A DNA stretch of 64,000 nt from Siphonodentalium dalli. Lineage: Eukaryota; Mollusca; Scaphopoda; Gadilida; Siphonodentaliidae. How positions within the stretch are numbered: the stretch's first letter is position 1; every line of letters begins with the position of its first letter. The stretch is taken from the NCBI GenBank assembly GCA_032622095.1, contig CP136062.1:229416578-229480577 (forward strand), written 5' to 3'. Positions 1,337-51,869 of this stretch are shown here, piece after piece. The notes under the pieces were generated by a model. That model was given only the letters and a program-made list of their open reading frames with translations. It ran no database searches and was not told where the DNA came from. Both the position numbers and the translations under genes were made by a program.

Positions 1337-1900
1337 TACTCTGGTCAGCACAGATAAAAAAGATATCACCATTGTCATAGAAACCATGGTATACTATCTT
1401 AGTAGTCAGCTTAGATAAAAGAGATATAACTATCGTCATAGAAACCATGGTATACTATCTGATAACTACTGTTATAGTCAGTCCATATAAAAGAGATATA
1501 ACCATCATTATGGAAACCATGGCATACTATCTAAGTAGTCAGCTCAGATAAAAGAGATATAACTATCGTCATAGAAACCATGGTATACTATCTGATAACT
1601 ACTCTTATAGTCAGTCCATATAAAAGAGATATAACCATCGTCATAGAAACCATGGTATACTATCTAAGTAGTCAGCTCAGATAAAAGAGATATAACTATA
1701 GTCATAGAAACCATGATATACTATAACTCTTCCCATAGTCAGCCCTGATAAAAAAAGATATTGCTATCGTCATAGAAACCATGGTATACTATCTGATAAC
1801 TCCTACCATAGTCAGCCCGGACCAAAAGGATATGATGATCGTCATAATAACAGTGGTTTAGTAACTGTGCTGACTATTCGATATAGTCAGCCCGGACAAA
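1337..1900. repeat. AT-rich tandem array, ~70-85 bp units
   Basis: Units combine 'agataaaagagatataac', 'catagaaaccatggtatact' and 'gtcagctcag' blocks, repeated about seven times with variation in spacing. The 'agagatataaccat' block is shared with the 36-bp array that follows, so the second array probably grew out of this one. Confidence 0.85.
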
Positions 1901-3195: not shown

Positions 3196-3285
3196 TCACA
3201 TAATCACTCTGTGTGTATTCGACCACCGTTACCTCCATACACCGTGAACCCACAGAATATAACTATCATATTGGCAGGAAGTTTC
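3196..3285 (+). CDS. GALC: GALC exon (SHNHSVCIRPPLPPY...LAGSF)
   Basis: Preceded by 'ctctatttttcag' and followed by a strong donor, 'gtaagt'. It is 90 bp, phase 0 at both ends, 30 residues. The CIRPPLP motif matches the region after the barrel in GH59 enzymes. Downstream, bases ~3880-3905 repeat the last 27 bases of this exon and the following intron, but there the donor GT is changed to AT. Confidence 0.88.
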
Positions 3286-6200
3286 GTAAGTATGTCACTT
3301 AACATGGACCAGCCTAGAGAATTCAGATTGGGAGAAATACTTCTCTCTATTAGATTATTAGGGAGAAGTGGACTGTTATCAGGGAGAAGTCACTTCTCTC
3401 TATTAGATTATTAGGGAGAAATGGACTGTTATCGGGGAGAATTCACTTCCATCTATTAGATTATTAGGGAGAAGTGGACTGTTATCAGGGAGAAGTCACG
3501 TCTCCCTATTAGATTATTAGGGAGAAATGGACTGTTATCAGGGAGAAGTCACGTCTCCCTATTTGATTATTTTATCACTACTCCCCATTAGATTATTAGG
3601 GAGAAATAGACTATTATCAGGGAGAAGTCACTTCTCTCTATTAGATTATTAGGGAGAAATGGACTGTTATCAGGGAGAAGTCACTTCCCTCTATTACATT
3701 ATTAGGGAGAAGTGAACTGTTATGAGAAAGACGTCACCTCTATCTATTACATTATTATGAAGAAATAGACTATTACTTCTCCCTATTAGAATATTAGGGT
3801 GAAGTGGACTGTTATCAGGGAGATGTCATAAAGGCTGAAGTTCATTTACTCTCCATCCTCATTTTTCTGTGATCAAATAACTATCAAATTGGCAGGAAGT
3901 TTCATAAGTATGTCACTTAACATGGACCAGCCTAGAGAATTCAGATTGGGAGAAATACTTCTCTCTATTAGATTATTAGGGAGAAGTGGACTGTTATCAG
4001 GGAGAAGTCACTTCTCTCTATTAGATTATTAGGGAGAAATAGACTATTATCAGGGAGAAGTCACTGCTCTCTATTAGATTATTAGGGAGAAATAGACTAT
4101 TATCAGGGAGAAGTCACTTCTCTCTATTAGATTATTAGGGAGAAATGGACTGTTATCAGGGAGAAGTCATAAAGGCTGAAGTACATTTACTCTCCATCCT
4201 CATATTTCTGTGATCAAATAAGTATTATGCAACACAAGAGCTCATTTATAATATAATTATAGTGAGAGAGTACACCATTATAATACATTATAGTGAGTAA
4301 GTACACCATTATAACACATTATAGTGAGTAAGTACACCATTATAATACATTATAGTGAGTAAGAACACCATTATAATACATTATAGTGAGTAAGGACACC
4401 ATTATAATACATTATAGTGAGTAAGGACACCATTATAATACATTATAGTGAGTAAGTACACCATTATAATACATTATAGTGAGTAAGTACACCATTATAA
4501 TACATTATAGTGAGTAAGTACACCATTATAATACATTATAGTGAGTAAGTACACCATTATAATACATTATAGTGAGTAAGTACACCATTATAATACATTA
4601 TAGTGAGTAAGTACACCATTATAATACATTATAGTGAGTAAGTACACCATTATAATACATTATAGTGAGTAAGAACACCATTATAATACATTATAGTGAC
4701 TAAGTACACCATTATAATACATTATAGTGACTAAGTACACCATTATAATACATTATAGTGACTAAGTACACCATTATAATACATTATAGTGAGTAAGTAC
4801 ACCATTATAATACATTATAGTGACTAAGTACACCATTATAATACATTATAGTGAGTAAGAACACCATTATAATACATTATAGTGAGTAAGTACACCATTA
4901 TAATACATTATAGTGAGTGAGTACACCATTATAATACATTATAGTGAGTAAGTACACCATTATAATACATTATAGTGAGTAAGTACACCATTATAGTGAG
5001 TAAGTACACCATTATAATACATTATAGTGAGTAAGAACACCATTATAATACATTATAGTGAGTAAGAACACCATTATAATACATTATAGTGAGTAAGTAC
5101 ACCATTATAATACATTATAGTGAGTAAGAACACCATTATAATACATTATAGTGACTAAGTACACCATTATAATACATTATAGTGACTAAGTACACCATTA
5201 TAATACATTATAGTGACTAAGTACACCATTATAATACATTATAGTGAGTAAGTACACCATTATAATACATTATAGTGACTAAGTACACCATTATAATACA
5301 TTATAGTGAGTAAGAACACCATTATAATACATTATAGTGAGTAAGTACACCATTATAATACATTATAGTGAGTGAGTACACCATTATAATACATTATAGT
5401 GAGTAAGTACACCATTATAATACATTATAGTGAGTAAGTACACCATTATAGTGAGTAAGTACACCATTATAATACATTATAGTGACTAAGTACACCATTA
5501 TAATACATTATAGTGAGTAAGTACACCATTATAATTAGCAAATATACCTCAAATATGCCGAGTTGAAATGTGCAAACTGGTTTTAGAGAGAAGTCACATC
5601 TCCCAAGGACAAAAGTAGGGAGAAGTTGCACATTTTTGCGAGAAGACGTCTCCCAGGTTGTCATCAAGTCTTGTCCCTGTCACTTAAAAATAGAAGTAGC
5701 TCTCATTGTGACTAACTTTACAGGATTCTATAATTTCAATGTGTTCTTCAGTGTATGAAATGGTAAGTCTGAGCCAAGAGTTCTTTGGTTAATTAATCAT
5801 TTATATACTAAATGGATTCTTTCCCACTCAAGTATTAAAATTATACATTGGAATGATCTATTATTCGTCTGTAGGAATCTTCACGAAAAATTGAACAGAC
5901 AACAGACAATAAAAGTACAGAAGGTTTAACTTATTATTATCTGAATATTTCCTAAGGGAACTACTCGTCAATGAGTGTTTAGTATACAATGGGTTAATGT
6001 GAGACTGCCCCCAAGTCCTGCCATTTATAGAGCCTTTCAGGCACATCCTGAGTTCAACCCTGTGCCAATGCATTCTCTTAATTATATATATATAAGAGAA
6101 TGCATTGGCCTAACAAATTTTATATTATTTATTATAATTGTTAAAAAATGTAAGAAGAATGAAAAACATAATAAAAAATTGTTAAAGAATGTAAGAAATA

Positions 6201-9200
6201 ATGATATTATGATAAAAATTGTTAAAGAATGTAAGAAAAAATTATAAAAAATTATAAAGAATGTAACAGAAAATGGTAAAATGATAAAAAAAAATTGATA
6301 ATACTTGCCCAAATTATGTGAACATTTCCTTAGGAAAACTCTCTTCTCGGTCCACAACAGCTTAGGATATCGGTTGGGATGATGCTATTTTGGACTGAGT
6401 CCTGCCCCATTACTCTTCTATAACAGACTTTACGCCAAGAATCTTGGGTGGGGGTTATCTTGCTTGTATGTCTTCGGATTAGGTCAAGTGGAAGCTTTGC
6501 ATGTAGGAACATAGAGGGCAGCCTTTCCCAAGCATGTTGGTATCAAACATGCATATATCAGAGGTCCATTAACCCTTTACCCAACAAACCGGCCAAAACC
6601 GGCCAAATAAAGCTTCAACAGCCTAAAATATCTTCGGTCTGTCTCAATAGAACCATACAAATATGGATATCATTGGAACAGGCTCCTTGACCACATTGTG
6701 ATAGTTACAGTTATGCCCTGTGCCAATGCATTCTCTTATATATGCGAGTCGACCATAGGTCGCCTCGCATATATAAGAGAATGCATTGGCCTAAAAAAAA
6801 TCTTTTTTTACCATTTTTTCTTACATTCTTTAACAAATTTATAATTTTTAATGTGTTAAGCCAATGCATTCTCTTATATATGCGAGGCGACCTATGGTCG
6901 ACTCGCATATATAAGAGAATGCATTGGCACAGAGCCGTTCTGTTGGGTAAAGGTTTAAAGCAGCAAGATTTATAAATAAACAAAGCCTTGTTTTCCAGAG
7001 AATTCTGACATGTCAGATGATTAATCACATGTAGTACATGTACGTCTTTGAATGAAAGTCTGTTATAGAAGACCAAGTGGGCGGTACTCAGTCCAAAACA
7101 GCAATATCCCACCGATTTCTCAAGCTGTTGTGGACCCAGAAGACAATATCCCACCGATTTCTCAAGCTGTTGTGGACCCAGAAGACAATATCCCACCGAT
7201 TTCTCAAGCTGTTGTGGACCCAGAAGACAATATCCCACCGATTTCTCAAGCTGTTGTGGACCCAGAAGACAATATCCCACCGATTTCTCAAGCTGTTGTG
7301 GACCCAGAAGACAATATCCCACCGATTTCTCAAGCTAACAGCAATATCCCACCGATTTCTCAAGCTGTTGTGGACCCAGAAGACAATATCCCACTGATTT
7401 CTCAAGCTATTGTGGACCCAGAAGACAATATCCCACCGATTTCTCAAGCTGTTGTGGACCCAGAAGACAATATCCCACCGATTTCTCAAGCTGTTGTGGA
7501 CCCAGAAGACAATATCCCACCGATTTCTCAAGCTGTTGTGGACCCAGAAGACAATATCCCACCGATTTCTCAAGCTGTTGTGGACCCAGAAGACAATATC
7601 CCACCGATTTCTCAAGCTGTTGTGGACCCAGAAGACAATATCCCACCGATTTCTCAAGCTGTTGTGCAACATCCCACCGATTTCTCAAGCTGTTTGTGGA
7701 CCCAGAAGACTTGGTCTGTATTCTTCAATGAGTATATGGTAAAACAAGGGTTAAGTCCCCTGCGAACCGTTCGTAAGTCACTTTCAAAAATAGAAAAGAT
7801 CAGAACATAAAATGCGTAGATTTGAAACCAAAGTCGCAGACGAATAAACATCTCCATTATAAAATAATTCTTTATTATGTAATTATCTTATAGTGTGGAT
7901 GGGCCCAATGGCCGCAATACTTAAATAACCGTTGATTTTACTATAATAATGTCCACTAACTGTTATGATTGCCCACTCTATCGTGAGTCTACGACAACAC
8001 GGTCGTTGTTTGGGTTCGAGATTCGAGGTTCAGTTCGATTCGAAACCGAGACGATGATTCGGTCTCAAGGTTCGGTTCGACCTAAAATCTAAGGTTCGCA
8101 GGGCCCTAAACAAGGGTTAAGCTTTTCTACCAATGTTGTTCAATAACTTACAATACTTTTGAGATGGTTCATTACATTACCTAGGTTGACATTTTGATTT
8201 GGCTGTCTTTAGATCTCGAGATTAACTGAATGTGTCTTGTATATTTACCTGTTTCAGTTTAATATATCTTCCCTGAACATGTGGTACAGTAAGCTGGGAT
8301 TTAATGGGGCACCAACGACTCTCTTCAAGAAGTTAGCGACCAAAAAAGTAAGTAGCTTGACTCCGTTACGAGAATCTGAATCATGAGTATAATTGGCTTC
8401 TGCGAACGTTCGAGATTCGATTCGATGTGAAATCACACAAAATGTTTGATTTGAATCGAAATGATAGCGGAGATTCGAACCTCAATCAGGAGACTCGTGC
8501 GACTGTCTAATATTAAGAATTGAAAAAGTCCTTAAAACATTGATCATGTTTAACAGAAGGGAGATAACAGCCTATGTACAATTATTAGGTTACAAATGTA
8601 CCCTTTTCTAATTTGATTTCATTTATCCATTCAATTTTCCAGTAATAATAAGGTATAATCAGCCAAAATATGACACCGAAGAGCCATGATGAATTGATCA
8701 ATTACTCGTCATGTATGTTTCCATAATCACTGGCAATGAAAACAAATTATTAATGTCGCTGAACTTTCGATTATTTGGTTTGATTCAAAGTGAAATCGTC
8801 CCCCAATTTGATTCGAGGTTTGATTCGGCAAAACAATTGTGATTCGCAGGAGCCTAGAGTATAAAGGTTCAATCTAATATAGAAACAGTTTTGGAATTTT
8901 ATTCAACTTGTAAATTTCTGGAGGATTATGTAAAGTCATGGAATTTTCCGCAGCCAAAAAAGTTGTGTTTTGTTGTGATTTGGCCAAGCAGCTAAATAGA
9001 CTCTAAACTTTAACCATTTATCCAACAGAACGGCCCTGTGCCAATGCATTCTCTTATATATGCGAGTCGACCATAGGTCGCCTCGCATATATAAGAGAAT
9101 GCATTGGCTTAACACATTAAAAATTATAAAATTGTTAAAGAATGTAAGAAAAAATGGTAAAAAGTGTTAATTAAATTGAATTGCTCAGAAACCTGTTGTA

Positions 9201-12200
9201 TAGACGCTCAGTATAGAGAGTGGGAAGTACGAAATATTTGTATGGATGGAAAAAAAATTATTTTTTAATTCCAAGAAGTGGATATCCTTTCCCCCTAAAC
9301 TGGGCTATCAGCAAACCAAAGCACAATCAAATCAGATGATCCGTGCCCATGTAACAAGCTAAAATGTTCATACGGACACACAATTAAGAAATTCCCAAGC
9401 CAAACAAGGGCGAAAACTCTAGTAAAAGTAAACGGACACAGCCAAAAAAGTTGTGATTTGGCCAAGCAGCTAAATAGACTCTAAACTTTAAAGGGGTACG
9501 GTACGCCATTTTCATTAAATTTCCGGTGACAACAACGATCTAATATCGATAATATATAGAAACATAAGTAATTTGAGTCGAAGATGTATTCTGTAAACGC
9601 TCAGGTTAATAGGCTATCTTAAAATTTAATAATTTAAAAGTTAATAATTTAATATAAATTGAATTTATGACTGGAGCCATAAAATGGCGTCATTTAAATT
9701 ACGAATTGCCGTAATCAAAAATAGTAATTGAGGGATACTGGATTTTTAAACCGATCGCACACACGATCGCTTAAAATATTATGATGATACGGGGAGAACA
9801 CTCAAGCCACTCACTGACTAGCGACGATACAATAACTTAAATGATTATATGGGACTAGTATGCATATAATATAACTTTTATTTGATTCATTTGGTTGAAA
9901 ACTTTACAAAAATTACTCGACAACGACAATTTGTATTTTTGCATTCCGGTAAATTTGTCATCCGTAACATGACTTCGTACTCAACAGACTTTCAAATAAT
10001 GGAAAAATTGTTACCTTATTCTCCGACTCAGAGACTATAGAAACCAACAACAACATGTGGCGTACAGTACCCCTTTAAGCTTTTCTCGGTTAGTTTACCA
10101 TTTGGAGATATATAATAAAGATAGGAATAAACAAATAAATCCCCCAGCAACTATTTGTTTTTAATTTAAATTTTACGAGAGGTCAGGCAAGATATTGACC
10201 TAGTGATCGACAAGCCTTGAAATAGTGTGTCTTTCATCTGCATGAGGTCCCCAGTGGGTGAATTTAGTGGCTATCCCACACTGTGGCTAGCATCACCAAA
10301 TTCACCAAACTGAACAGAAGGGAAAAAGTAACCAAAAACAATGTTAATTTAAGACTAGATACTTCCCAGATATGAGGCCTAAGCAGAATGAGGTCCCTAG
10401 CAGGTGAATTTAGTGATGCTAGCCTGTCATCAGTGTTCCCGCTGGACCGAAAAAATCTCCTGGCGAAAAAAGTGGCCAACTGAAATATTTAGTGGCCAAA
10501 TAAAAACAAAATTGGCCAAATGTTTTTTGGCCAAATTAAAAAAACTTGGGCCAAATTAAATCCTCATTTTCTGGGCTCACAATTGATGACTAAATTATAT
10601 TTTTCAAATATATAACTCTCTGACTCTATGTCGCGTCGCTGACACCATGTTTGCCAACTAATCAAGCAATGGGGTGTGTTAGTTGTCATCACTATTTTTG
10701 CCGAAATAAAACAACAGTTCTGTTTCTTATTGTCGTGAGGTGTTGAATAACTATTGTTGTATTAATAATCTTTATGGTGTGAAGCCCAGTTGTTATAAGA
10801 CGGGAGGCAGTTTACGACACATTGCATAACGGACATGCCATCGCTGGTACATCAAATTATAGGACAATGCATTTACGTATTTCATCTTACATACCGCCTG
10901 ATCAACAAAATGATAATTATTATGATATAACCAGTGCAGAGATTAATGTTTTTGACGATTAGTAATCGCCTTTGTACAACCATCACCATTCAATCAATGC
11001 TCCCCTTACAAAATAAATTTTGGTTGTCATCGTATGATGTATCCGAAGTATAACACTCGCGTGTCCAAAAACCAGCAATAATTCGTCGCCTTACTAATCA
11101 TCGCTTTTTGAATTAGATTTCTGTCTCCATTTGTGGTGGGAAAAAAAATGGCCACCGACAGCGCGAACACTGCCCGTCGTCTGGTATAACAACTAAATTA
11201 ACCCTTCGGGGACCTCATTCTGCAAGAGATACATTGTTGATATAATGGCAGGTAACTGACGGCCAGGTGTCACTGACCCTCGGTGTTGATGAAGTCTATA
11301 TGCTTACCACATTAAGAGATACATTGTTGATATAACGGCATGTAACTGACGGCCAGGTGTCACTGACCCTCGGTGTTGATGAAGTCTATACGCTTACCAC
11401 ATTAAGAGATACATTGTTGATATAACGGCATGTAACTGACGGCCAGGTGTCACTGACCCTCGGTGTTGATGAAGTCTACACTCTTACCACATTAAGAGAT
11501 ACATTGTTGATATAATGACAGGTAACTGACAACCAGGTGTCACTGACCCTCGGTGTTGATGAAGTCTACACGCTTACCACATTAAGTCGCGGCAACAAAG
11601 CTGACTCTGGTACTCCGCCTCCATCCACTCCATTCCCGATTCCATATAAAGAAGACTTCGAAGGTAAGATGTCAAGCTCTAAGAGCTCTTTCCATCAATG
11701 TATCACATTATTATAATCAATAAATTTGAAAAATGATCAAGGAAATATGGGTTGATACAAAAATCGGACTTGGCACTGAAAGGGTTAAGTCATAATATGA
11801 AAGTCATTATAAGAGAAGACGGATTTACTGGATTGACTGCATCCATCTGTATGTTGATCCCTTTGTCCGTCCATCCGGGCATATATCTCAGCCTTTGGTT
11901 ATCATTTCATTTAAATTTCATATGGATGTTCACCATCATGACTGCTTTCGCATTTTCCATCCTATAGTTATCCTTCTTTATTTAGTGTTGTTTATGAGTG
12001 TTGTCTGTGAGGGGCTCCATAAGGGTAGTTTAACCCTTCCATGACTGGAGCTTCCTGTAGGGAGCCCCATACAGGTGGCAGCTTGCATTGCTGAGTGTCG
12101 TCTGTGAGGGGCTCCATAAGGGTAGTTTAACCCTTCCATGACTGGAGCTTCCTGAAATTTTGCGAAAACCCTGTGCAAATGCATTCTCTTATATATGCGA

Positions 12201-18200: not shown

Positions 18201-20958
18201 TGCTTGCGAAAATTGTCAACAAAACTACCGTTCTGATCCTCCATTATGTCATTAAGTTTTTAGTGCGGGAATTGTTCTGAAAGCACATAGAAAACTGGAC
18301 TTTCGGGCGATCGGTTTTCGCCATTTTTGTTCGGAAAACCCGCGCTATATATAGAAACGGAAAGTAGAATTCCCAGAACAAACAGCGGATTATGCCGAAC
18401 TTATTCGGACCACTTCGGCTTTCGGTTAAAACGTAAACAAACAGAGAAACAAATCGATGTTTTTGTCAATCAACCGGAATATTCTATGTGTAATTTAACA
18501 TTAAAGTTAGATTATTATACACCATTATGACCTTAAGATGTAAGCCTTTCCGATGTATATAGCATCATGTATTGATTTGCTAGGTAAATCGAGTAAAATA
18601 CACCACAAATTCCCGCCACAGATCGTGGGCGTAAGTCGTGTCATAGGATTGGTATACAAGCGGTCTTGGACTAAAGACCGGCACCTCCATCCCAATATCT
18701 TAGCCGGTTTTAGTACGAGAAGACTTGGACTAATGCTGCACCAGCTCAACTCCCATCATGAAAGGGTTAATCTGCATGATGAAACCTCACCAATAAATGT
18801 AAAATAGCGTATGTCCTCACTGAATGATAATCATAATCATTTTGGAAAGTAATTGAATATAATTAAAAAAGTAATTGAATTACATGCTATTTATCCAAGT
18901 AATAAATAACTTTTTTTACTTTTAATTGAGAAATGTCCCAATTAAAAATTACTATCAATTACTTGAGAAAAAGTTATTAATTAGAGTCATTTACAATTAC
19001 CCCATCCCTGGCTACTTTTGATATTTCTCTTCATCGTGCACTAATTAACACTAATATGCTTACAGGACTGATATCTATACTGAGATAGAGTCGTCAATCG
19101 GTGAAGTGAATGCCACAGATGCTGTCTTTATTGCTGCCCGCGTTAGCCTCAGCACGTCCTTCTGTGTTATCTACAAAGCTACTGGGATATTTTTCTTCTT
19201 GTATACGAAAGAGAATAAGTTCAAGGTCACAGCCGACTTAGGTAGTTAGTTTATATTGTCATATTGGGGGGCACTGGCAATTTTTGGGTGCCCCCCCCCA
19301 GGCCCCCCTAATTACAGTGTATTTTATCACCTTTAAATGCCTAATTGCAGTGTATTTTATCACCTAATTCCAGTGTATTTTATCACCTTTAAATGCCTAA
19401 TTGCAGTGTATTTTATCACCTAATTACAGTGTATTTTATCACCTTTAAATGTCTAATTGCAGTGTATTTTATCACCTAATTACAGTGTATTTTATCACCT
19501 TTAAATGTCTAATTGCAGTGTATTTTATCACCTAATTACAGTGTATTTTATAACCTTTAAATGCCTAATTGCAGTGTATTTTATCACCTTTACCAGTGTA
19601 TTTTATCACCTTTAGTAGTGTATTTTGTGACCTTTACCAGTGTATTTTATCACCTAATTACAGTGTATTTTATCACCTTTAAATGTCTAATTGCAGTGTA
19701 TTTTATCACCTAATTACAGTGTATTTTATCACCTTTACCAGTGTATTTTATCACCTTTAGTAGTGTATTTTGTGACCTTTACCAGTGTATTTTATCACCT
19801 AATTAGTGTATTTTATCACCTTTAAATGCCTAATTGCAGTGTATTTTATCACCTAATTCCAGTGTATTTTATCACCTTTAAATGCCTAATTGCAGTGTAT
19901 TTTATCACCTAATTACAGTGTATTTTATCACCTTTAAATGTCTAATTGCAGTGTATTTTATCACCTAATTACAGTGTATTTTATCACCTTTAAATGTCTA
20001 ATTGCAGTGTATTTTATCACCTAATTACAGTGTATTTTATCACCTTTAAATGCCTAATTGCAGTGTATTTTATCACCTTTACCAGTGTATTTTATCACCT
20101 TTACCAGTGTATTTTATCACCTTTTAAATACCAGTGTCTTTTATCACTTTTACCAGCCCAGAACAATACCCTGCTTGAAGGGAAGGTGACAGGTTTAAAG
20201 ATGTGGAACAAGCTTTCACTGCTCGTCGAGGTGCGTGTTATCTATTCCTGTTATCATCAACACTGTTCACAATATTTTGGTGTGTCTTGGTTTCCCGCGA
20301 AATTTTTCATTAATTCCAATATGTGTCTCATGTAAAATTGATTTTTTGGCCTTCATTATCCCCCCCCCCCCCCCCCAAAAAAAATCCAATGGCCGAAAAA
20401 GCCACAGGCTGAAAAAACAGGTGGTTTGGAATTTATGGACCAAGTTTATATCTCGCATGGTTTCTGAGGTAGGAAACCAACAAAAGTGGTGTACATTTAT
20501 TTTATAAAAAATAATATTTTCATAAATAGAGGCTGGAACCTCATATACTTTTGTTAAATCTAGTCAGTACCTTTAGTATTATTTGATTACGATTATCCAA
20601 CAATGAATCTACTGTAGGGCCCTGAAAATATTCGATGTCGATGTCCCCGTTGTGCAGACAGGTGCCGATTCGCAGACTCCTATTATATTCATGTGAATCT
20701 TCATATCTTTTGCAGGGTGATACTGCCGCTGGTGCTGTTAATGGCCAAATCACCTTCACTATTCGTATACCACCTAACATTACAAATGGGTTTGTTGGAA
20801 TTGGCACATCCAGTTTTGGTTTGGCTGACTTTGACAACCTGGAAATCATTCGAGCGTCTGAGGGAAAAAAGAAACTCAAAGTAGAAGACAAAGCAGCGAG
20901 CAAGAATCACGACAATAATCTGTACTTTGAACCACATCATGTCTACAATGGACAATAA
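3196..20958 (+). CDS. GALC: Galactocerebrosidase gene, seven 3' exons (5' part outside window)
   Basis: Lysosomal hydrolase that removes galactose from galactosylceramide (GH59). Exons at 3196-3285, 8258-8347, 11522-11663, 13201-13378, 19066-19241, 20157-20230 and 20716-20958 have AG/GT borders and matching phases, and together give about 297 residues. Recognised family landmarks in order: CIRPPLP, MWYSKLG, LTLGVDEVYTLTTL, YKEDFEGY, LLGDHSWTD, VFIAARV, FKVTADLA, and GFVGIGTSSFGLADFDNLEI near the end. These correspond to the C-terminal beta-sandwich and lectin-like part of the enzyme; the TIM barrel with the catalytic glutamates would lie upstream. The protein ends with about 30 residues beyond the usual family end. 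The introns (0.5-5.7 kb) are full of mobile elements. The assignment rests on remembered family similarity and on phase consistency, not on a search. Confidence 0.92.
3330..4195. repeat. 53-bp minisatellite with a duplicated exon end
   Basis: Units contain 'attagattattagggagaa', 'tggactgttatcagggagaa' and 'gtcacttctctct'. There are two blocks. The second begins after 3875 with a copy of the exon 3' end and intron start (compare 3257-3350 with 3880-3970), so the duplication unit included coding sequence. It lies in the first visible GALC intron. Confidence 0.9.
4236..5536. repeat. 31-bp satellite with higher-order structure
   Basis: About 42 units of 'gtgagtaagtacaccattat' plus 'aatacattata'. 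Variants (gtgactaag, gtaagaac, gtgagtgag and one short unit 'accattatagtgag') appear in the same order twice, about 455 bp apart (4671-5000 and 5125-5455). This shows recent block duplication. Intronic. Confidence 0.95.
5537..6353. other. GALC intron, mostly unremarkable
   Basis: AT-rich intron. At 6064-6112 there is a short palindrome, 'gccaatgcattctctta' facing 'taagagaatgcattggc', a loop-less relative of the hairpin module in the MITEs. From about 6140 to 6300 there are loose repeats of 'aaaattgttaaagaatgtaa'. No coding signal. Confidence 0.5.
6573..6954 (+). mobile_element. TTAA-target MITE, family A (copy 1)
   Basis: Flanked by TTAA on both sides (6569-6572 and 6955-6958). The left terminus is 'ccctttacccaacaaaccgg' and the right terminus is its near complement, ending 'ctgttgggtaaaggt'. 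TTAA duplication plus CCC termini is the signature of piggyBac-type transposons (established), so this is probably a non-autonomous piggyBac derivative. It contains two 69-bp hairpins (6722-6790 and 6860-6928) around an AT-rich centre and has no coding capacity. Confidence 0.75.
7104..7690. repeat. 42-bp minisatellite within one arm of an inverted repeat
   Basis: About 13 units of 'caatatcccaccgatttctc', 'aagctgttgtggacccagaa', 'ga'. The 42-bp period keeps all frames open, giving a false 252-residue frame (DNIPPISQAVVDPE repeats). The flanks (7055-7140) are an inverted copy of 6354-6433 (tctgttatagaag, actcagtccaaaa, agctgttgtgga), so the array expanded from one arm of an inverted repeat that encloses MITE A. 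Intronic. Confidence 0.9.
7985..8110. repeat. TTCG-rich degenerate repeat
   Basis: Loose repetition of 'gattcgaggttcggttcgat'. Similar patches occur at 8400-8490 and 8765-8850. Simple-sequence character, with no coding meaning. Confidence 0.5.
8258..8347 (+). CDS. GALC: GALC exon (FNISSLNMWYSKLG...LATKK)
   Basis: Acceptor 'tttacctgtttcag', donor 'gtaagtag'. It is 90 bp and phase 0 on both sides, so it joins the previous exon without a shift. MWYSKLG followed by LFKKL fits the GH59 segment after the LAGSF strand. Contains one NIS glycosylation sequon. Confidence 0.85.
9014..9168 (-). mobile_element. MITE family A, half copy in reverse orientation
   Basis: Starts after TTAA (9010-9013) with 'ccatttatccaacagaacgg', then the 69-bp hairpin (9040-9108), then the AT-rich centre in the complement orientation of the copy at 15620-16011. 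The other half is missing, so this is a solo arm. Confidence 0.65.
9492..10074. mobile_element. TTAA-target MITE, family C (copy 1)
   Basis: 583 bp flanked by TTAA (9488-9491 and 10075-10078). Termini are 'aggggtacggtacgcca' and 'tggcgtacagtacccct'. A second copy of identical length lies at 33982-34564 and differs by only a scattering of substitutions. No open frame, so it must be moved by a transposase supplied elsewhere. Confidence 0.85.
10228..10307. repeat. Foldback element F (copy 3)
   Basis: 'catgaggtccccagtgggtg' followed by 'aatttagtggctatccc' and an inverted 'ggctagcatcaccaaattca'. Same hairpin family as 2673 and 2962, with shorter arms. Confidence 0.55.
10377..11224. repeat. Foldback element F (copy 4), split by a hAT-type element
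   Basis: The left half (10377-10430: aagcagaatgaggtcccta, gaatttagtgatgctagcct) and right half (11173-11224: 'cttcggggacctcattctgc') are the two arms of one hairpin, separated by 10431-11172. The inserted element dates later than the hairpin. Confidence 0.65.
10431..11172. mobile_element. hAT-type non-autonomous element (copy 1)
   Basis: Termini are 'cagtgttcccgctgg' and 'cagcgcgaacactg' (inverted complement cagtgttcgcgctg). CAG-starting short inverted termini with 8-bp target duplications are typical of hAT transposons. The flanking octamers 'cctgtcat' and 'cccgtcgt' match at 6 of 8 positions, so the duplication is decayed. The interior has 'ggccaaat' runs next to the left end and no transposase frame. 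Confidence 0.65.
11225..11584 (+). repeat. Four 90-bp units containing a splice acceptor and part of a GALC exon
   Basis: Each unit runs 'agagatacattgttgatata', an acceptor region, 'gtaactgacggccaggtg', then coding text for VSLTLGVDEVY.LTTL. Units start at 11225, 11315, 11405 and 11495. Only the last unit continues into the rest of the exon. In units 2 and 3 the acceptor 'gcag' reads 'gcat'; units 1 and 4 keep AG. Reading on from an upstream unit hits TAA within the next unit. Confidence 0.92.
11522..11663 (+). CDS. GALC: GALC exon (VTDNQVSLTLGVDEVYTLTTL...YKEDFE)
   Basis: Acceptor 'ataatgacag' is inside the fourth 90-bp repeat unit; donor 'gtaagatg'. It is 142 bp, phase 0 to phase 1; the final G joins GT of the next exon to make Gly. 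LTLGVDEVYTLTTL and PFPIPYKEDFE match the GH59 linker region. The first 63 bases of the exon are the repeated part; the remainder is unique. Confidence 0.88.
12131..12836 (+). mobile_element. TTAA-target MITE, family B (copy 1), interrupted
   Basis: Left end after TTAA (12127-12130): 'cccttccatgactggagctt'. Right end near 12836 is decayed ('gtcaaagaaggagtgg', then TTAC). A second left-end copy lies just upstream (from about 12031). It contains the hairpin module with a different loop (gagtctcccattgggagc). The hairpin is split by the hAT element at 12215-12717. Confidence 0.6.
12215..12717. mobile_element. hAT-type MITE with perfect 8-bp target duplication
   Basis: 503 bp. Termini 'caggatccgcgctgg' and 'cagcgcgaaccctg' form a 14-bp inverted pair with two mismatches. 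Both sides are flanked by CATTGGGA (12207-12214 and 12718-12725), an exact 8-bp duplication as expected for hAT transposition. Internal 'ttttggccaaatg' runs sit near both ends. No coding capacity. Confidence 0.85.
13201..13378 (+). CDS. GALC: GALC exon (GYKEHEEPFNMAQQTGSFEV...LLGDHSW)
   Basis: Acceptor 'ttttacctgtag', donor 'gtgagact'. 178 bp, starts with two bases of a split codon and ends with TG, completed by G of the next exon to give Trp. QTGSFEV, ILRQMV and NLLGDHSW are in the order expected in GH59 enzymes after the linker. Confidence 0.9.
13379..14190. other. GALC intron, no gene seen
   Basis: Starts with 'ttaagccgcgttcacacaag', a motif that looks like a repeat end, and has a 'ttgcat/atgcaa' rich stretch to 13560. 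No partner end was found, so no element is called. Confidence 0.4.
14191..14310. repeat. 120-bp palindrome
   Basis: The left arm 'gtgtttctctcatatgatat' continues through 'ttatgaaactcgt' and 'gaattttcagttttctc'. The right arm is its complement ending 'catatgagagaaacac'. The loop is 'gccagaggc'. Flanks at 14170 and 14320 (ataaatagaatatg, tcatatcctctattt) are also weakly inverted, so the element may be larger. Confidence 0.8.
14895..15107. mobile_element. TA-target foldback MITE (copy 1)
   Basis: 213 bp, bounded by TA on both sides. It is almost entirely a hairpin: left 'cagtaatgccctaattaatc', right 'gattaattagggcattactg', with arms of about 100 bp around 'gctatcggggagagc'. TA target plus CAGT terminus suggests mobilisation by a Tc1/mariner-type transposase. 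Sister copy of equal length at 26916-27128. Confidence 0.8.
15620..16011 (+). mobile_element. TTAA-target MITE, family A (full copy)
   Basis: 392 bp between perfect TTAA (15616-15619 and 16012-16015). Termini are 'ccctttacccaacaaaccgg' and 'cccttctgttgggtaaaggg'. Two 69-bp hairpins at 15769-15837 and 15917-15985. Directly to its left, 15604-15615 ends 'catgaaaggg', the right terminus of family B, so two families abut at one TTAA. Confidence 0.85.
16528..17277. repeat. 40-bp minisatellite
   Basis: About 19 units of 'taataaagcctactctataa' and 'agaaggataactctaaaccc', with several shortened units lacking 'taataaagcctac'. Contains 'aaaccctaa' but only once per unit, so it is not a telomeric repeat. 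It lies in the GALC intron between 13379 and 19065. Confidence 0.93.
17331..18766 (+). mobile_element. TTAA-target MITE, family B (copy 2), split by a Mutator-like element
   Basis: Left end 'cccttccaagaaagactgga' after TTAG (mutated TTAA); right end 'cccatcatgaaaggg' before TTAA (18767-18770). Contains two hairpins (17373-17441 and 17469-17537). The sequence resumes as 'cagctcaactcc' after the insertion at 17559-18732; the uninterrupted text is visible in copy 1 near 12800 (aatgctgcaccagcgcag). Confidence 0.8.
17559..18732. mobile_element. Mutator-like element, non-autonomous, 65-bp inverted termini
   Basis: 1174 bp. Left terminus 17559-17623 starts 'tagtccaagtcttctcgtac'; the right terminus 18668-18732 is its exact inverted complement, ending 'cgagaagacttggacta'. 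Both sides are flanked by ATGCTGCAC (17550-17558 and 18733-18741), a perfect 9-bp duplication. Long inverted termini with a 9-bp duplication are typical of Mutator-like (MULE) transposons. The interior has no transposase. A 127-residue minus-strand open frame (17839-18222) has no recognised motif. Confidence 0.8.
18838..19014. repeat. Degenerate AATTAC-rich block
   Basis: Dense 'aattac/gtaatt' text ending 'acaattaccccatccctg'. A second block of the same kind is at 44385-44552. The shared end (cagggatgggg in complement) may be a hAT-like terminus, but the other end was not found. Confidence 0.5.
19066..19241 (+). CDS. GALC: GALC exon (TDIYTEIESSIGEVNATDAVFIAARV...FKVTADL)
   Basis: Acceptor 'atatgcttacag', donor 'gtagttag'. 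176 bp, phase 2 in and phase 1 out. VFIAARV, then IFFFLYT and KFKVTADL are the hallmark strands of the GH59 C-terminal lectin-like domain. Has an NAT sequon. Confidence 0.92.
19309..20155. repeat. Intronic minisatellite abutting an exon acceptor
   Basis: Composite units: 'cagtgtattttatcaccttt', 'aaatgcctaattg' alternating with 'cagtgtattttatcac', 'ctaattac', about 57 bp together. Toward the 3' end shorter units read 'ttatcacctttaccag'. The last of these, 'ttatcacttttaccag', is the splice acceptor of the next exon. Earlier units at about 19590, 19735 and 20090-20110 carry the same acceptor-like text. Confidence 0.9.
20157..20230 (+). CDS. GALC: GALC exon (QNNTLLEGKVTGLKMWNKLSLLVE)
   Basis: 74 bp: two bases complete the Ala codon opened by the previous exon, then 24 codons to 'gtcgag' and donor 'gtgcgt'. 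GKVTGLKMWNKLSL matches the strand after the V-T-G/A-D-L-A motif in GH59. The acceptor is part of the upstream tandem array. Confidence 0.88.
20231..20715. other. GALC last intron
   Basis: 485 bp. Contains a run of about 18 C followed by A-rich sequence at 20361-20385 and otherwise no repeat or exon signal. Confidence 0.5.
20716..20958 (+). CDS. GALC: GALC terminal exon with minisatellite-encoded tail
   Basis: Acceptor 'atatcttttgcag'; 80 codons plus TAA. GFVGIGTSSFGLADFDNLEI is the conserved end of GH59 proteins. Family members usually end a few residues later; here the frame continues with a Lys-rich stretch (SEGKKKLKVEDKAASKN) and then HDNNLYFEPHHVYNGQ, which is translated from the first unit of the 40-bp array. 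The stop codon TAA is the 'taa' of 'gacaataatc' in the second unit. Contains an NIT sequon. Confidence 0.9.
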   Translation, partial: GDTAAGAVNGQITFTIRIPPNITNGFVGIGTSSFGLADFDNLEIIRASEGKKKLKVEDKAASKNHDNNLYFEPHHVYNGQ

Positions 20959-23945
20959 TCTGTACTTTGAACCACATCATGTCTACAACGGACAATAATC
21001 TGTACTTTGAACCTTACCATGTCTACAACAGACAATAATCTGTACTTTGAACCACATCATGTCTACAACAGATAATAATCTGTACTTTGAACCACATCAT
21101 GTCTACAACAGACAATAATCTGTACTTTGAACCACACCATGTCTACAACAGACAATAATCTGTACTTTGAACTGAATCATGTCTACAACGGACAATAATC
21201 AGTACTTTGAACCACATCATGTCTACAACAGACAATAATCTGTAATTTGAACCACATCATGTCTACAACAGACAATAATCTGTACTTTGAACCACACCAT
21301 GTCTACAACAGACAATAATCTGTACTTTGAACTGAATCATGTCTACAACGGACAATAATCAGTACTTTGAACCACATCATGCTACAATGGACAATAATCT
21401 GTACTTTGAACCACATCATGTCTACAACAGACAATAATCTGTACTTTGAACCACATCATGTCTACAACAGACAATAATCTGTACTTTGAACTGAATCATG
21501 TCTACAACAGACAATAATCTGTACTTTGAACCACATCATGCTACAATGGACAATAATCTGTACTTTGAACCACATCATGTCTACAACAGACAATAATCTG
21601 TACTTTGAACCACATCATGTCTACAATGGACAATAATCTGTACTTTGAACCACATCATGTCTACAACAGACAATAATCTGTACTTTGAACCACATCATGT
21701 CTACAACAGACAATAATCTGTACTTTGAACCTTACCATGTCTACAACAGACAATAATCTGTACTTTGAACCTTACCATGTCTACAACAGACAATAATCTG
21801 TACTTTGAACCACATCATGCTACAATGGACAATAATCTGTACTTTGAACCACATCATGTCTACAACAGACAATAATCTGTACTTTGAACCACATCATGTC
21901 TACAACAGACAATAATCTGTACTTTGAACCACACCATGTCTACAACAGACAATAATCTGTACTTTGAACTGAATCATGTCTACAACGGACAATAATCAGT
22001 ACTTTGAACCACATCATGCTACAATGGACAATAATCTGTACTTTGAACCACATCATGTCTACAACAGACAATAATCTGTACTTTGAACCACATCATGTCT
22101 ACAACAGACAATAATCTGTACTTTGAACCACATCATGCTACAATGGACAATAATCTGTACTTTGAACCACATCATGTCTACAACAGACAATAATCTGTAC
22201 TTTGAACTGAATCATGTCTACAACGGACAATAATCAGTACTTTGAACCACATCATGCTACAATGGACAATAATCTGTACTTTGAACCACATCATGTCTAC
22301 AACAGACAATAATCTGTACTTTGAACCACATCATGTCTACAATGGACAATAATCTGTACTTTGAACCACATCATGTCTACAACAGACAATAATCTGTACT
22401 TTGAACCACACCATGTCTACAACAGACAATAATCTGTACTTTGAACCACATCATGTCTACAATGGACAATAATCTGTACTTTGAACCACATCATGTCTAC
22501 AACAGACAATAATCTGTACTTTGAACCACATCATGTCTACAACAGACAATAATCTGTAATTTGAACCACATCATGTCTACAACAGACAATAATCTGTACT
22601 TTGATCCTTACCATGTCTACAGTGGACAATAATCTGTACTTTGAACCACATCATGTCTACAACAGACAATAATCTGTACTTTGAACCACATCATGTCTAC
22701 AACAGACAATAATCTGTACTTTGAACCACACCATGTCTACAACAGACAATAATCTGTACTTTGAACCACATCATGTCTACAATGGACAATAATCTGTACT
22801 TTGAACCACATCATGTCTACAACAGACAATAATCTGTACTTTGAACCACATCATGTCTACAACAGACAATAATCTGTACTTTGAACCACATCATGTCTAC
22901 AATGGACAATAATCTGTACTTTGAACCACACTATGTCTACAACAGACAATAATCTGTACTTTGAACTGAATCATGTCTACAACAGACAATAATCTGTACT
23001 TTGAACCACATCATGCTACAATGGACAATAATCTGTACTTTGAACCACATCATGTCTACAACAGACAATAATCTGTACTTTGAACCACATCATGCTACAA
23101 TGGACAATAATCTGTACTTTGAACCACATCATGCTACAATGGACAATAATCTGTACTTTGAACCACACCATGTCTACAACAGACAATAATCTGTACTTTG
23201 AACTGAATCATGTCTACAACGGACAATAATCAGTACTTTGAACCACATCATGCTACAATGGACAATAATATGTACTTTGAACCACATCATGTCTACAATG
23301 GACAATAATCTGTACTTTGAACCTTACCATGTCTACAATGGACAATAATCTGTACTTTGAACCACATCATGTCTACAATGGACAATAATCTGTACTTTGA
23401 ACCACATCATGTCTACAACAGACAATAATCTGTACTTTGAACCACATCATGTCTACAACAGACAATAATCTGTACTTTGAACCACATCATGTCTACAACA
23501 GACAATAATCTGTACTTTGAACCACATCATGTCTACAACAGACAATAATCTGTACTTTGAACCACACTATGTCTACAACAGACAATAATCTGTACTTTGA
23601 ACTGAATCATGTCTACAACAGACAATAATCTGTACTTTGAACCACATCATGCTACAATGGACAATAATCTGTACTTTGAACCACATCATGTCTACAACAG
23701 ACAATAATCTGTACTTTGAACCACATCATGTCTACAATGGACAATAATCTGTACTTTGAACCACACCATGTCTACAACAGACAATAATCTGTACTTTGAA
23801 CCACACCATGTCTACAACAGACAATAATCTGTACTTTGAACCACATCATTTCTACAACAGACAATAATCTGTAATTTGAACCACATCATGTTTACAACAG
23901 ACAATAATCTGTAATTTGAACCACATCATGTCTGCAATGGACATG
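20920..23945. repeat. 3-kb, 40-bp minisatellite at the GALC 3' end
   Basis: About 75 units of 'gacaataatctgtactttga' and 'accacatcatgtctacaaca'. Variants include 'gaactgaatcat', 'gaaccttaccat' and a 38-bp form 'catcatgctacaatg'. Runs of the same variant order recur (e.g. around 21121-21380), which points to block duplication. No AATAAA was found within or just after it, so the polyadenylation site is unknown. Confidence 0.95.
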
Positions 23946-47399: not shown

Positions 47400-50300
47400 T
47401 TACCTCAGTGCTTCTGGGTAGACAACGTTCCTAGTTTTCCCTTCTGGTGCATAAACTAACAGACTGGAGGGGGAGCCGACCCGTGAGCATGCAACGTATA
47501 GCTGTCCATGTGAGAAACAGGGACTCTGAAGTTGGAGGCCAACAACTTTAAGTGTCTGTCCTTGTGATTTGTTGATTGACATTGCAAAGCTCAATCGAAC
47601 TGGGAACTGAAGCCGGCGGAACTGTATTGGCGACTCAGTGGGAATCAATGGAATCCTAGGGAGAAAAACATGCTCCCCTTTCGCACATCCAGTGAGAATA
47701 GTTGCCTCAATGATATGAGGTGATATTTTCTTGATAGAAAGTCGTGTACCATTACACAACTTAGGTGGTTCAACATTTCGGAGCAACATGATTGGTGCAC
47801 CTACCTTCAACTGCAACTGATGAGGTGGCATGCCTGGGGGTTTGAGTGAATTGAGATACTCGGTCGGGTAATTTACAATTTCTGATTGGTCTGGAATGGT
47901 ATCAATGGAGTGCATAGAATGAAGCTGTCCAGGGACTTGTTCCAACAATTTCAAGTTAACCTCGTCAACAATATCATTTGTAGGAGCTAGGATGGTTCTC
48001 TCACAGAGCCATGTGTGATCCGAGAGCTTGCTAGGAAGATCTCTGAAAACATTCACAATAAGCTCATCAAGAGAGGAAACAATCGAGCTCAAAGCAGATA
48101 GATCTATTCGTCCTTCGGCATCAGAATTGCACTTGCCATCGCCAATTCTGAGTAACTGGTCGGAAAAATATGCAGCCACGTCATTACCAAACAGATGCGC
48201 CCTCATGTTAATTGTCAGCTTGAGTATTCGAACACTCTTCCAAAGGTAAGATGATTTGATGCAAGCTTTTAATTCATCAGCCTTTGTGCCTTTTGGTACA
48301 TTAGGCAGAGTTTGTCGGAAGTCTCCAGACAATAGTAAGGTTATGCCACCCATAATATTGTTACAGCCCCTTATATCTTGCAGTGTTCGATCCAGTGCCT
48401 CGAATGCCCTCTTATGTGACATAGTACACTCATCCCAGACAATCAACACAGCCTCTCTCAACAGGTGAGCAAGACCAGTACCCTTGCTTATATTACATGT
48501 TGGAGTATCGCTCGCATTCAAATTGAGTGGCAGTTTGAATGTTGAATGTGCAGTTCTACCTCCAGGAAGAAGTGTTGCAGCTATGCCAGAGGATGCAACT
48601 GCAACAGCGATTTTCCTTTCTTCCCTGACTGTCGCCAATATAAGGTTGGTTACAAACGTTTTCCCAGTGCCCCCGGGAGCGTCGAGAAAATAAATACCAC
48701 CAAGGTGAGTGGCAACACTCTGCAGTATGGTCACATAACAGTGTCGCTGCTCTGGGAGAAGATTTGGTTCGCCCGATGACAGAGTTTGTTCGATGGTATC
48801 TAAATCATACGACAGTTCACGTAGCACCTCTCTGGGCAGTGCAGACATGCGAGAATGTTGAGTGCGAGGGAGACCGAAAGTGTGGAGCTCTGGTCCCCCA
48901 AGAGCCAGGATTTTGTTTTCGATCTCGATGAGAGAAGCATTGAAAATATCATCGTTGAATGAAACGTCAATGCCAGGATTTGCAACCTGCAACCTGTACT
49001 TAAGATCCTCCGAGAGGTTTTCTCTGAATTGGAGCCACAATTCAAGAGGATTGGCAATACCACATATGTGCAAGAGAGTCGCAAACAAACTACGCAAACT
49101 CCTAGGAGACTTTGATATGGCTGCGTCTGTCATCGGTGCCTCCCATTGATGGTCGTCTTCCAATAGTCCCCTTTTGAAGCACGCTTCTCTGTAGCTAAGA
49201 CATAATTGGCCGTCGACAGTTCGCAAGGAGTTAAAAGATGTTGGACCTTCCACTTCATGCAGCAGTATTCTCAAGAAAAAACATTCCTGTTGTGTGGGAT
49301 GAACCGTGTAGACCCTACCGAGGGCATAGTCGTTGAACACGCCCATGACTCCTTCGACGGGTTCACCACGCTTGCGGCGGACCCATCGATTATTGACAAA
49401 GGTGAAATAAGATGGGAGGTCACAGTACAAAATTGTGTTGGCAAAATCATCTTCTTGGCAAAGTTTGAAAAAGGCAGTGAGTGTCGTCTCTTTTGGTGCC
49501 GATACAACTTGTGCCGCTGTTTGTTCGGTGAAGTACACTCTGTCCATTTTCTAAATGCACAGCAAGTCGAAAAACGGCTGGGTGTCTATCGTGGATGGGG
49601 AAGTCAAAAATGCGCCAAAACGCTTCATTGGTACTGATGTACCTACCCATTTGAAACTGACTCAACTCGTCCTTTGTTCTCATGTCTCGTAGGGCGAACA
49701 TGGCCGCATCTGATCCCTTATTGATGTATTTGCATACATACTTTATAGCTTTTACAGAGTTGCAAAACTCAACGTTTATGTGTGCGTTGAAGATTTTTTA
49801 TAACATGGGACAATATGGAACAACCCACCTATTGTCTGCAACAAAATCCTGTCCATTTTTAAGTGTTATATTGGCGACATTTCCACCATCATCTGGCGAT
49901 CTCCTCCTGTAAAGTGGATAGCCATCATGGCCAGTTTGCGTTTCTAAGAGGAACGCCCGAGGGTACCGCTTCGTACATTTTCGATCTTTCATGCAGGGCG
50001 AATTGAAATTGAATGTACCACATGGACCGTGTATCATCTGAGCCTTCACAGTCTCGAACAATTCTGGATCATCATCAGGATCAGGAAATTCGGCAGAAAT
50101 GAAGCTGTCGATCTGTTCGGGGCGTATTTTCTGTTTAAGCCAAGTTAAAATGTGTGCATGTGGTAGTCCTCTCTTTTGCCATTCAACCGTATACATATCG
50201 CACACAGGTTGGCCGAAAATGTGCGATTTCTTCAAAAGATTCATGAGCTTCGTCAATTTCAGACGGAACACTCTAGATGTCAAGTCATGCCTGTCTTTAG

Positions 50301-51869
50301 AAACCTGGCCCTCGAACAATTCAACATTCAACTCCTGCCATGCAGGGTTGCACGTGAATGTGATGAAAAGGTCCGGACGACCGAAGTGCCTGACAAATGT
50401 CATAGCATCCTGCGTCTTCTCCTGCATATATCGCGGGCTACCTGTGAATGTCGACGGGAGGATTACCAGTTGGCCGACTCCGGCTCTTTCCTGATCATTA
50501 TTTATGCTATCACAGAGGTGTATATATGAATCTGCACGGAGTTTCTGTTGGTTGTTCCGAATATAGAGGAGTCTTTCACCCTCCACTTTGGCGTACATAT
50601 CCACAGCAAACTGACTGAACAGGTTCCGGCTTCTCTGCAATTGGTTGAAGGACCCATCACGAACCATGAAATGATAGGAATAAAGTCCTTGCATGACACA
50701 TTCTTGTTGCCGATTGAGCGTGGTATAGCGAACTTATATCCGTCTTCACCGAAGACACATAGGAGGGGATATTGGAGAGGGTCGTACGATCTATGTGTCT
50801 CGCAAATGCGAAGTATAGTGTCGTCACGATGCTTTAAAACAATATCACGCCTACCATGCTCTGCGCCTGCTAAAACGACCGCTATCTCATTGGACGCAGG
50901 TTCATTAAATCGACCACTGTGTTGATTGAGTGGTCTTCTGTCCGCGTCTATGACCACCTGCAAATTTGGTGTGTTGTAGGTTTCTAGAGCATATTTAAAA
51001 CTGGACACATAAGAGTTGTGTTGATGGATCATTTGCTGGAGAGTGTATATAACTTCAGGTCTGGTGCCATCAGACAAAGCGGAACGGAGTTCTACCTCTC
51101 TATTAAAATCACCAACAAAGTATATCTGCATGTATTGAGGTTGTGCATCATCATTGGGTTGTAGAGGGCCGATGCGATGGTAAACCTGACCTTGAACTTT
51201 GAACGTTGGCATATACACACCTTCAGTTATGATATTTGCCCCAAAAGATGTCATTTGGAATGCGGCATTATATTTCTGGATGTTCTCGAGAAAATGTTTA
51301 GATTCTTGGGTTGAACCACGAAGCAGGTCTTGAAGAGGTTCAGGTGGGTCAGCATGTTGTTGAAGCATAACTTTGGCATTCAAGCAGCACATCCCTGGTG
51401 GTTCACCTTGCCATTTAAAGGCGCGACAATGTTGACACAATTCGGTCATTCGGGAAATCTGCAAAATTCTGTGCGACTTGTAGTCGATGTGAGGGTCATA
51501 AACGAAAGCAGAGTTTTGCCACTCCCCGATCGCGTGTGCATGTCGCCGGCGACGATCAGCCTCATGATGCCGCTGCTCATCGGTTTCAACGGCTCGAGCA
51601 TGAACAGCCCTCTCCCGGAGATCTAATAGGCGTTGTTCACGCTGCTGCCCAGTTTCCACTTCTCGAGCCTGAACAGCCCTCTCCCGTTTATCTAATAGGC
51701 GCTGTTCACGCTGCTGCTCAGTTTCCACTTCTCGAGCCTGAACAGCCGTCTCCCGTTTATCTGATAGGCGTTGTTCACGCTGCTGTCCAGTTTCAGTAGC
51801 CTTTTCTATTTTCTTACGTTTGGCACCTGAACTTGTCCGGCCAATGATTGGTCTCTTCTTGGGCGGCAT
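47400..51869 (-). pseudogene. Helitron Rep/PIF1-helicase protein, broken by two frameshifts and one stop
   Basis: Rolling-circle transposase fused to a PIF1-family helicase. Start MPPKKRPIIGRTSSG at 51869; a Lys/Arg/Gln-rich part has three to four copies of EQQREQRLLDKRERAVQARE; then the Helitron N-terminal region. Frameshift near 50690 (before MQGLYSYHFM). Rep motifs: FITFTCNPAW; the HUH pair in GLPHAHIL (about 50150-50172); the two-Tyr motif KYVCKYINKG (about 49718-49752). A TAA sits at 49798 just after VVPYCPML. A second frameshift near 49540 (VHLENG / RVYFTEQTAA). Helicase: Walker A GGTGKT (about 48660), Walker B VWDECTM (about 48430), SINKSQGQT (about 47555), YVACSRVG near the end, stop at 47400. 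Catalytic residues are kept, so inactivation looks recent. Inference: not functional as it stands. Confidence 0.88.

Follow-up and report, generated by a model that had tools for sequence, protein, structure and literature searches.

A minisatellite with four copies of an acceptor and exon start in a GALC gene, and like arrays at other exon edges of the family

Introduction

What becomes of a gene when one of its splice junctions is taken up into a tandem repeat? The question is raised by a GALC gene in the window (the whole stretch of 64,000 nucleotides analysed here, C2:229416578-229480577), where a minisatellite carries the acceptor and the start of one exon four times. How did such an array arise, which of the copies would the spliceosome take, and is this junction a special case? 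We answer these questions by comparing the units with each other, with the GALC paralogues of the same genome (2.23 Gb in nine contigs) and with the junctions of a control gene family.

Results

Structure of the 90-bp array

A repeat with a period of 90, 4.0 copies, 95% matches and a score of 649 was detected at 11224-11586 (TRF). Its units span 11225-11584, and each consists of 27 bp of intron end followed by 63 coding bases (21 codons). A sequence-only reading of the window had placed the unit starts at 11225, 11315, 11405 and 11495, with an intron end and the first 63 coding bases in each, and both TRF and the alignment of the units agree with it. The array and its surroundings are arranged as follows (a slash in a motif marks a splice junction or break point).

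8258..8347, + strand: preceding GALC exon E11; 30 open codons; ends AAA/GTAAGT; junctions single-copy
11225..11314, + strand: unit 1; intron tail, AG and 63 coding bases; decoy acceptor CAG kept; exon copy from 11252
11315..11404, + strand: unit 2; decoy acceptor changed from AG to AT (CAT); exon copy from 11342
11405..11494, + strand: unit 3; decoy acceptor changed from AG to AT (CAT); exon copy from 11432; both near-acceptor changes of unit 2 present
11495..11584, + strand: unit 4; last copy, running on into the full exon; presumed real acceptor AG (CAG) at 11520-11521
11522..11663, + strand: GALC exon E12 (142 nt), in which the Glyco_hydro_59M match ends; donor GT at 11664

Only unit 4 joins the full exon. 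The translation of E12 matches the GALC PDB chains 4ccc_A (E 5.4e-7) and 3zr5_A (E 5.5e-7), and E12 begins at the same codon in 5/5 GALC paralogues of the genome. The sequence confirms that AG is kept in unit 1 and replaced by AT in units 2 and 3, as had been proposed, and the reading frame likewise confirms the in-frame TAA that would follow the use of unit 1: the frame reads VTDGQVSLTLGVDEVYMLTTLRDTLLI and then stops (27 codons plus TAA). Units 2 and 3 have a second substitution in common, T to C, five bases upstream of the AG-to-AT change. Three G-to-A changes are private to unit 4, and two of them jointly turn a glycine codon into asparagine.

Minisatellites are error-prone in genome assemblies, and on this general ground the array could be suspected to be an assembly or collapse artefact. 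However, the units differ from each other at 2-6 of 90 positions and the window contains no N, which is evidence against a simple artefact; independent arrays also exist at other junctions and in other paralogues. We thus regard an artefact as extremely improbable.

A private expansion in one paralogue

The genome contains five GALC paralogues, all on C2: A (the gene of the window, about 5.4 Mb from the end of C2), B (229.61-229.66 Mb), C (229.68-229.74 Mb), D (193.89-193.95 Mb) and E (233.88-233.97 Mb). In addition, an inverted 5' GALC piece is found at C2 194.2 Mb. Paralogues D and E each contain one unit only; its acceptor bases are those of unit 1, and the sequence that flanks it on either side is homologous (L001, L002). 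The proposal that an exon start was amplified is thereby borne out, with one unit in D and E and four in the gene of the window. Judged from these sequences, the array is a private one-to-four expansion of paralogue A. Unit 1 has two differences from the single unit of paralogue E (L001), and the units in general differ from it at 2-3 of 90 sites, whereas the upstream introns of A and E are diverged by about 7.5% (695 of 751 aligned sites identical); the array is therefore probably younger than the split of A from D and E.

The break points have the bases AAG in common (left flank TTCTGC/AAG, right end CACATT/AAG). A tandem duplication at this microhomology, following the split from D and E, would have taken in the last 27 bp of the intron and the first 63 bp of the exon in one paralogue. 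Later events would then have led to four units, with the AT-bearing unit copied once. The loss of AG from units 2 and 3 is best read as a single mutation that was then copied, since the second substitution is common to both units.

Further observations concern the introns and exons of the family. A 42-bp repeat of about 15 copies lies in the intron between E10 and E11 (7052-7810, + strand) and is open on both strands (NIPPISQAVVDPED on the + strand); it is also present in paralogue E and has no Pfam match. Paralogue B contains three different E13-type exon copies in series (L020, L021 and L022; C2:229651800-229656700), which are perhaps alternative exons. Within one GALC intron, there are seven CCTAAC repeats (telomere-type TTAGGG; L008 76-118).

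Arrays at other exon edges

An exon-intron junction inside a tandem array had been called unusual. This does not hold for the present genome: besides the E12 array, 20 further junctions of the GALC family sit in like arrays among 136 examined. We examined pieces of about 500-600 bp on each side of the exon matches in the five paralogues (plus the window) and counted copies of the junction-centred 30-mer at 80% identity within 600 bp. By this measure, 7/71 acceptors and 14/65 donors are multi-copy (21/136 in total), counts that support no significance test as the paralogues are not independent. The counts cover the exons that could be located (thus not E5, E15 or the first exon(s)), with E16 represented by its acceptor only, and omit the extra E13 donor (L022), the E13 of paralogue E, copies of parts of E3 and the inverted 5' piece on C2. 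The multi-copy acceptors are those of E1 (B, C), E7 (C), E8 (B, C) and E12 (A, B), and the multi-copy donors are those of E3 (all five paralogues), E7 (A, D, E), E9 (A, C, D, E) and E14 (D, E). TRF arrays are present at, or no more than 30 bp from, many GALC exon matches. If the arrays that paralogues have in common are inherited, we infer at least nine separate origins. All extra junction copies are on the intron side of their exon (98/98) and none on the exon side; thus, the whole exon always adjoins the innermost copy.

The gene of the window itself has further repeats of this kind.

1344..1794, + strand: second array at an exon edge in this gene; units of 61/72 bp that include the E9 end (last base 1388) and donor ATG/GTATAC
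3196..3285, + strand: exon E10; donor at 3286; donor-edge copy with AT for GT at 3904, in a longer-period array at 3620-4225
20911..23937, + strand: last-exon array; about 76 copies of 40 bp from the end of the apparent last coding exon

The E10 copy at 3904 lies beyond the 600-bp limit and is thus not included in the main count. At the 3' end, the predicted GALC stop codon (20956-20958) is inside the 40-bp array, and the last 15 codons are array sequence; the same 40-bp last-exon amplification is seen at loci L047, L059 and L036.

The acceptor of E12 is also amplified in paralogue B, where a 66-bp array (L003 3265-3598) has 19 exonic bases per unit and contains five copies of TAG/GTAACAAATGGCCAG, with AG intact in all. 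Its unit length, exonic share and break points differ from those of A, so that, by its sequence, it is of independent origin. We considered and rejected the idea that this double hit marks a hotspot: when five events fall on 14 acceptor positions, the chance of a repeated hit is roughly even. A rule of frame-preserving unit lengths was also rejected; 90 and 66 are divisible by 3, but the 98-bp unit and the spacings 45/46 and 72/70/69 are not all so.

Other acceptor-side arrays in paralogues B and C (L030 211-605, L031 290-561 and L011 396-580) have units of 98, about 70 and 45 bp that include up to about 80 bp of exon, and every decoy in them retains AG. On the donor side, paralogues B and E have recurring copies of the E3 end and its donor, which extend over kilobases among G-rich repeats (L013, L050, L051) and yield extra partial Glyco_hydro_59 matches.

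For a control family, we looked at myosin-head loci, where a TRF array lies over the exon match in 2/30 loci. These are the sister copies of the muscle-myosin relay exon L066 and L068, which have a 67-bp two-copy duplication of the exon end and the donor AAAAG/GTAGG; the exact myosin junction pattern placed only part of the 30 loci. A cluster of muscle myosin heavy-chain genes with eleven relay-exon matches is located at C4:274.2-275.5 Mb. The relay exon matches the chains 2ec6 and 2os8, which we take to be scallop myosin chains, only slightly better than human cardiac myosin.

Junctions compared with nearby introns

We next set the junctions against their surroundings, using the share of 30-mers that are repeated. 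Acceptors are repeated at a rate of 0.10 (7/70) and donors at 0.24 (14/59); with seven more junctions included, the counts are the 7/71 and 14/65 given above (0.22 for donors). The introns reach 0.18-0.21 at 50-300 bp upstream of acceptors and 0.33-0.44 at 50-250 bp downstream of donors, whereas exon sequence 30-45 bp inside acceptors is at 0.05. Farther out in the intron (300-500 bp), the rates are 0.06-0.13 upstream and 0.22-0.29 downstream, which is a rough baseline as the pieces end there and the search flank is shortened. In the whole window, 2295 of 9138 30-mers are repeated (0.25), and twelve 3-kb samples of the genome have a mean of 0.20 that is very uneven (0 to 0.98).

An amplification that targets junctions finds no support in these numbers, in which nearby intron is at least as repetitive as the junctions. 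The low rate of arrays at myosin exon edges goes together with less repetitive introns at the myosin loci (317/6398 30-mers, 0.05). Acceptor junctions are repeated about half as often as the intron 50-300 bp upstream of them, and a duplication that crosses a junction is thus probably less than fully neutral. The simplest account is that tandem duplication is blind to gene structure, with exon interiors purged and exon edges mostly tolerated.

Fate of the decoy sites

Did selection silence the surplus acceptors, as the sequence-only reading had suggested? According to this explanation, units 2 and 3 went from AG to AT since their use was harmful. Two of the three decoys in the array of the window are indeed without AG, and the use of a decoy would truncate the protein ahead of its Glyco_hydro_59_C part. 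We counted decoys with a looser match (70%, within 800 bp, intron-side copies only) and found AG in 18/20 decoy acceptors and GT in 96/101 decoy donors across the family. Both lost acceptors are units 2 and 3 of the window, and weak selection could also explain why these are the only ones; but their common second substitution makes them best read as one event, the acceptor of unit 1 is intact, and outside the array of the window 17/17 decoy acceptors retain AG. Among the donors, the simple 21-bp arrays of E7 have GT in 58/58 decoys and the others in 38/43. Retention of the dinucleotides is about what drift predicts (about 90% at a unit identity of 95%). Selective silencing is thus not borne out, and we rate it as quite unlikely.

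The concern that the array makes the gene vulnerable to changes in copy number holds in part. Gain or loss of whole units alters the length of the intron only. An exchange between units 3 and 4, in contrast, would be hazardous: with a break inside the 63 exonic bases, it would place a dead AT before the real exon and leave only the AG of unit 1, whose frame stops. Given this hazard, the silenced decoys would be a liability and not a protection.

Which acceptor is taken

Scored with a crude matrix built from the family, the acceptor of unit 1 reaches 2.0 and that of unit 4 reaches 1.1; both are weak, as the median is 7.3. The sequence of the site thus does not choose between the two, and the nearness of unit 4 to the donor of the exon is likely to be the discriminator. 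As the acceptor of unit 1 scores as high as that of unit 4, some use of it may occur.

We consider it very likely that the array is what has been termed a mirage in lancelets, that is, a near-neutral tandem duplication in which the exon-proximal site would be the one used. Such duplications would arise wherever minisatellites arise in the genome and would be kept if one whole exon edge remains. The spliceosome would take unit 4, the copy adjoining the full exon: exon definition would pair the donor at 11664 with the nearest acceptor, and the outer copies, treated as intron, would drift. This account does not imply that the array has a function.

A second explanation assumes that decoy use corrects itself. 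Unit 1 would be spliced to E11 first, and a second step from this joint to unit 4 would remove the decoy exactly (recursive splicing). E12 starts with GTAACT, so that an intact unit reads AG/GTAACT and combines acceptor and donor potential in one site, as in a ratchet point. The motif CAG/GTAACT of units 1 and 4 has a donor score of 7.1, which is above 21/59 real donors of the family, and the joint of E11 and unit 1 would rebuild AAA/GTAACT, near E11's own AAA/GTAAGT. Furthermore, E12 starts with GTAAC in 5/5 paralogues, and all four decoys of paralogue B read TAG/GTAAC. Against this, the AG/GT site is lost in units 2 and 3, and at the remaining acceptor arrays the exon (E1, E7 or E8) does not start with GT, so that recursive splicing gives no general account of why the arrays are tolerated. 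We see it as improbable that recursive splicing operates here. There is a similarly small chance that the E12 junction, amplified twice independently in A and B, is a natural array of reversible splice sites; if so, the use of decoys would be harmless, and the junction would show how arrays of splice sites can spread.

Hox genes and other elements

The homeobox search gave 28 matches. Ten of these loci were read: in one, a Lox5-type KLTGP peptide follows the homeodomain, and UbdA-like tails are present in four. We take these to be lophotrochozoan Hox signatures. Hox-like homeoboxes extend on one strand over about 1.35 Mb at C7:77.47-78.82 Mb (L102-L109, L111), and two neighbouring copies (L106, L107) are identical in the frame that was read. 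A genome search for the GFP family and for molluscan haemocyanin gave no match; it was run without a positive control, and the absence of either is thus not proven.

Two mobile elements were seen in the window.

47400-51869, - strand: Helitron-type element with PIF1 helicase and Helitron_like_N domains
53936-56311, - strand: LINE-type reverse transcriptase; endonuclease-like piece upstream (weak matches)

Discussion

Comparison with known systems

The closest known structures are the mirages of lancelets, which have been reported in Adh3, troponin C, the globins BflGb6 and BflGb9 and PGBD5, and are described there as not disturbing splicing (PMC3087553, PMC3902484). As described in these accounts, they are tandem, minisatellite-like repeats of the boundary between intron and exon, located at 5' or 3' edges, with units of 10 to about 160 bp and with AG/GT in many but not all copies, and the arrays here share these features (PMC3087553, PMC3902484). 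The E12 array consists of near-identical copies in head-to-tail order (4.0 x 90 bp, 95%); its unit spans the boundary, with 27 bp of intron and 63 bp of exon, and one copy joins the full exon. Both acceptor edges (7/71) and donor edges (14/65) are affected in the GALC family. The host is different: the range in the mirage papers is cephalochordate, which is not a structural criterion, whereas the genome here has lophotrochozoan Hox signatures, and these peptides disfavour a lancelet. Compared with the lancelet cases, we also infer at least nine origins within one gene family, and the array is known from the sequence of one assembly, with a unit number of 1 versus 4 between paralogues.

Two variants of human CBS come close to single aspects of the arrays. 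In c.844ins68, a 68-bp tandem duplication includes the junction of intron 7 and exon 8, and the splicing machinery is reported to favour the more distal site strongly, resulting in normal mRNA (PMC2630376). It resembles the present case as a tandem duplication of an intron/exon junction but is a human polymorphism with one extra copy, whereas the array here has four copies and is known from DNA (PMC2630376). The 31-bp VNTR c.1444_1467+7 of the same gene, reported with 16-21 copies, comprises by its name 24 exonic and 7 intronic bases; it would thus be an exon end with its donor, like our donor-side arrays, and differs from the 90-bp array in its side and its much shorter unit (PMC2630376). Internal tandem repeats at human exon-intron boundaries are a looser parallel (PMC2812944). 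The introns of earthworm metallothionein genes contain minisatellites, with none across a junction mentioned in the portion of that source considered here (PMC12783039). A literature search of incomplete coverage found no exon-boundary arrays in lophotrochozoans in the titles and abstract beginnings of the papers listed, which does not prove their absence. Duplications of boundaries that form introns likewise cross an intron-exon boundary and inherit their splice signals from the parent copy; unlike these, the start of E12 is unchanged in comparison with its paralogues.

The structure itself is thus known from lancelets, and what is new is the host group and the density of arrays within one gene family. 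If the pattern is genome-wide, minisatellites at exon edges would be a common by-product of minisatellite-rich genomes and not a lancelet curiosity. The GALC family would offer a natural setting, ready for use, in which to test how the spliceosome selects one site from neighbours that are nearly identical, and also how new introns might be seeded by tandem duplications. When such genomes are annotated, many junctions will confront gene finders with false partial exons.
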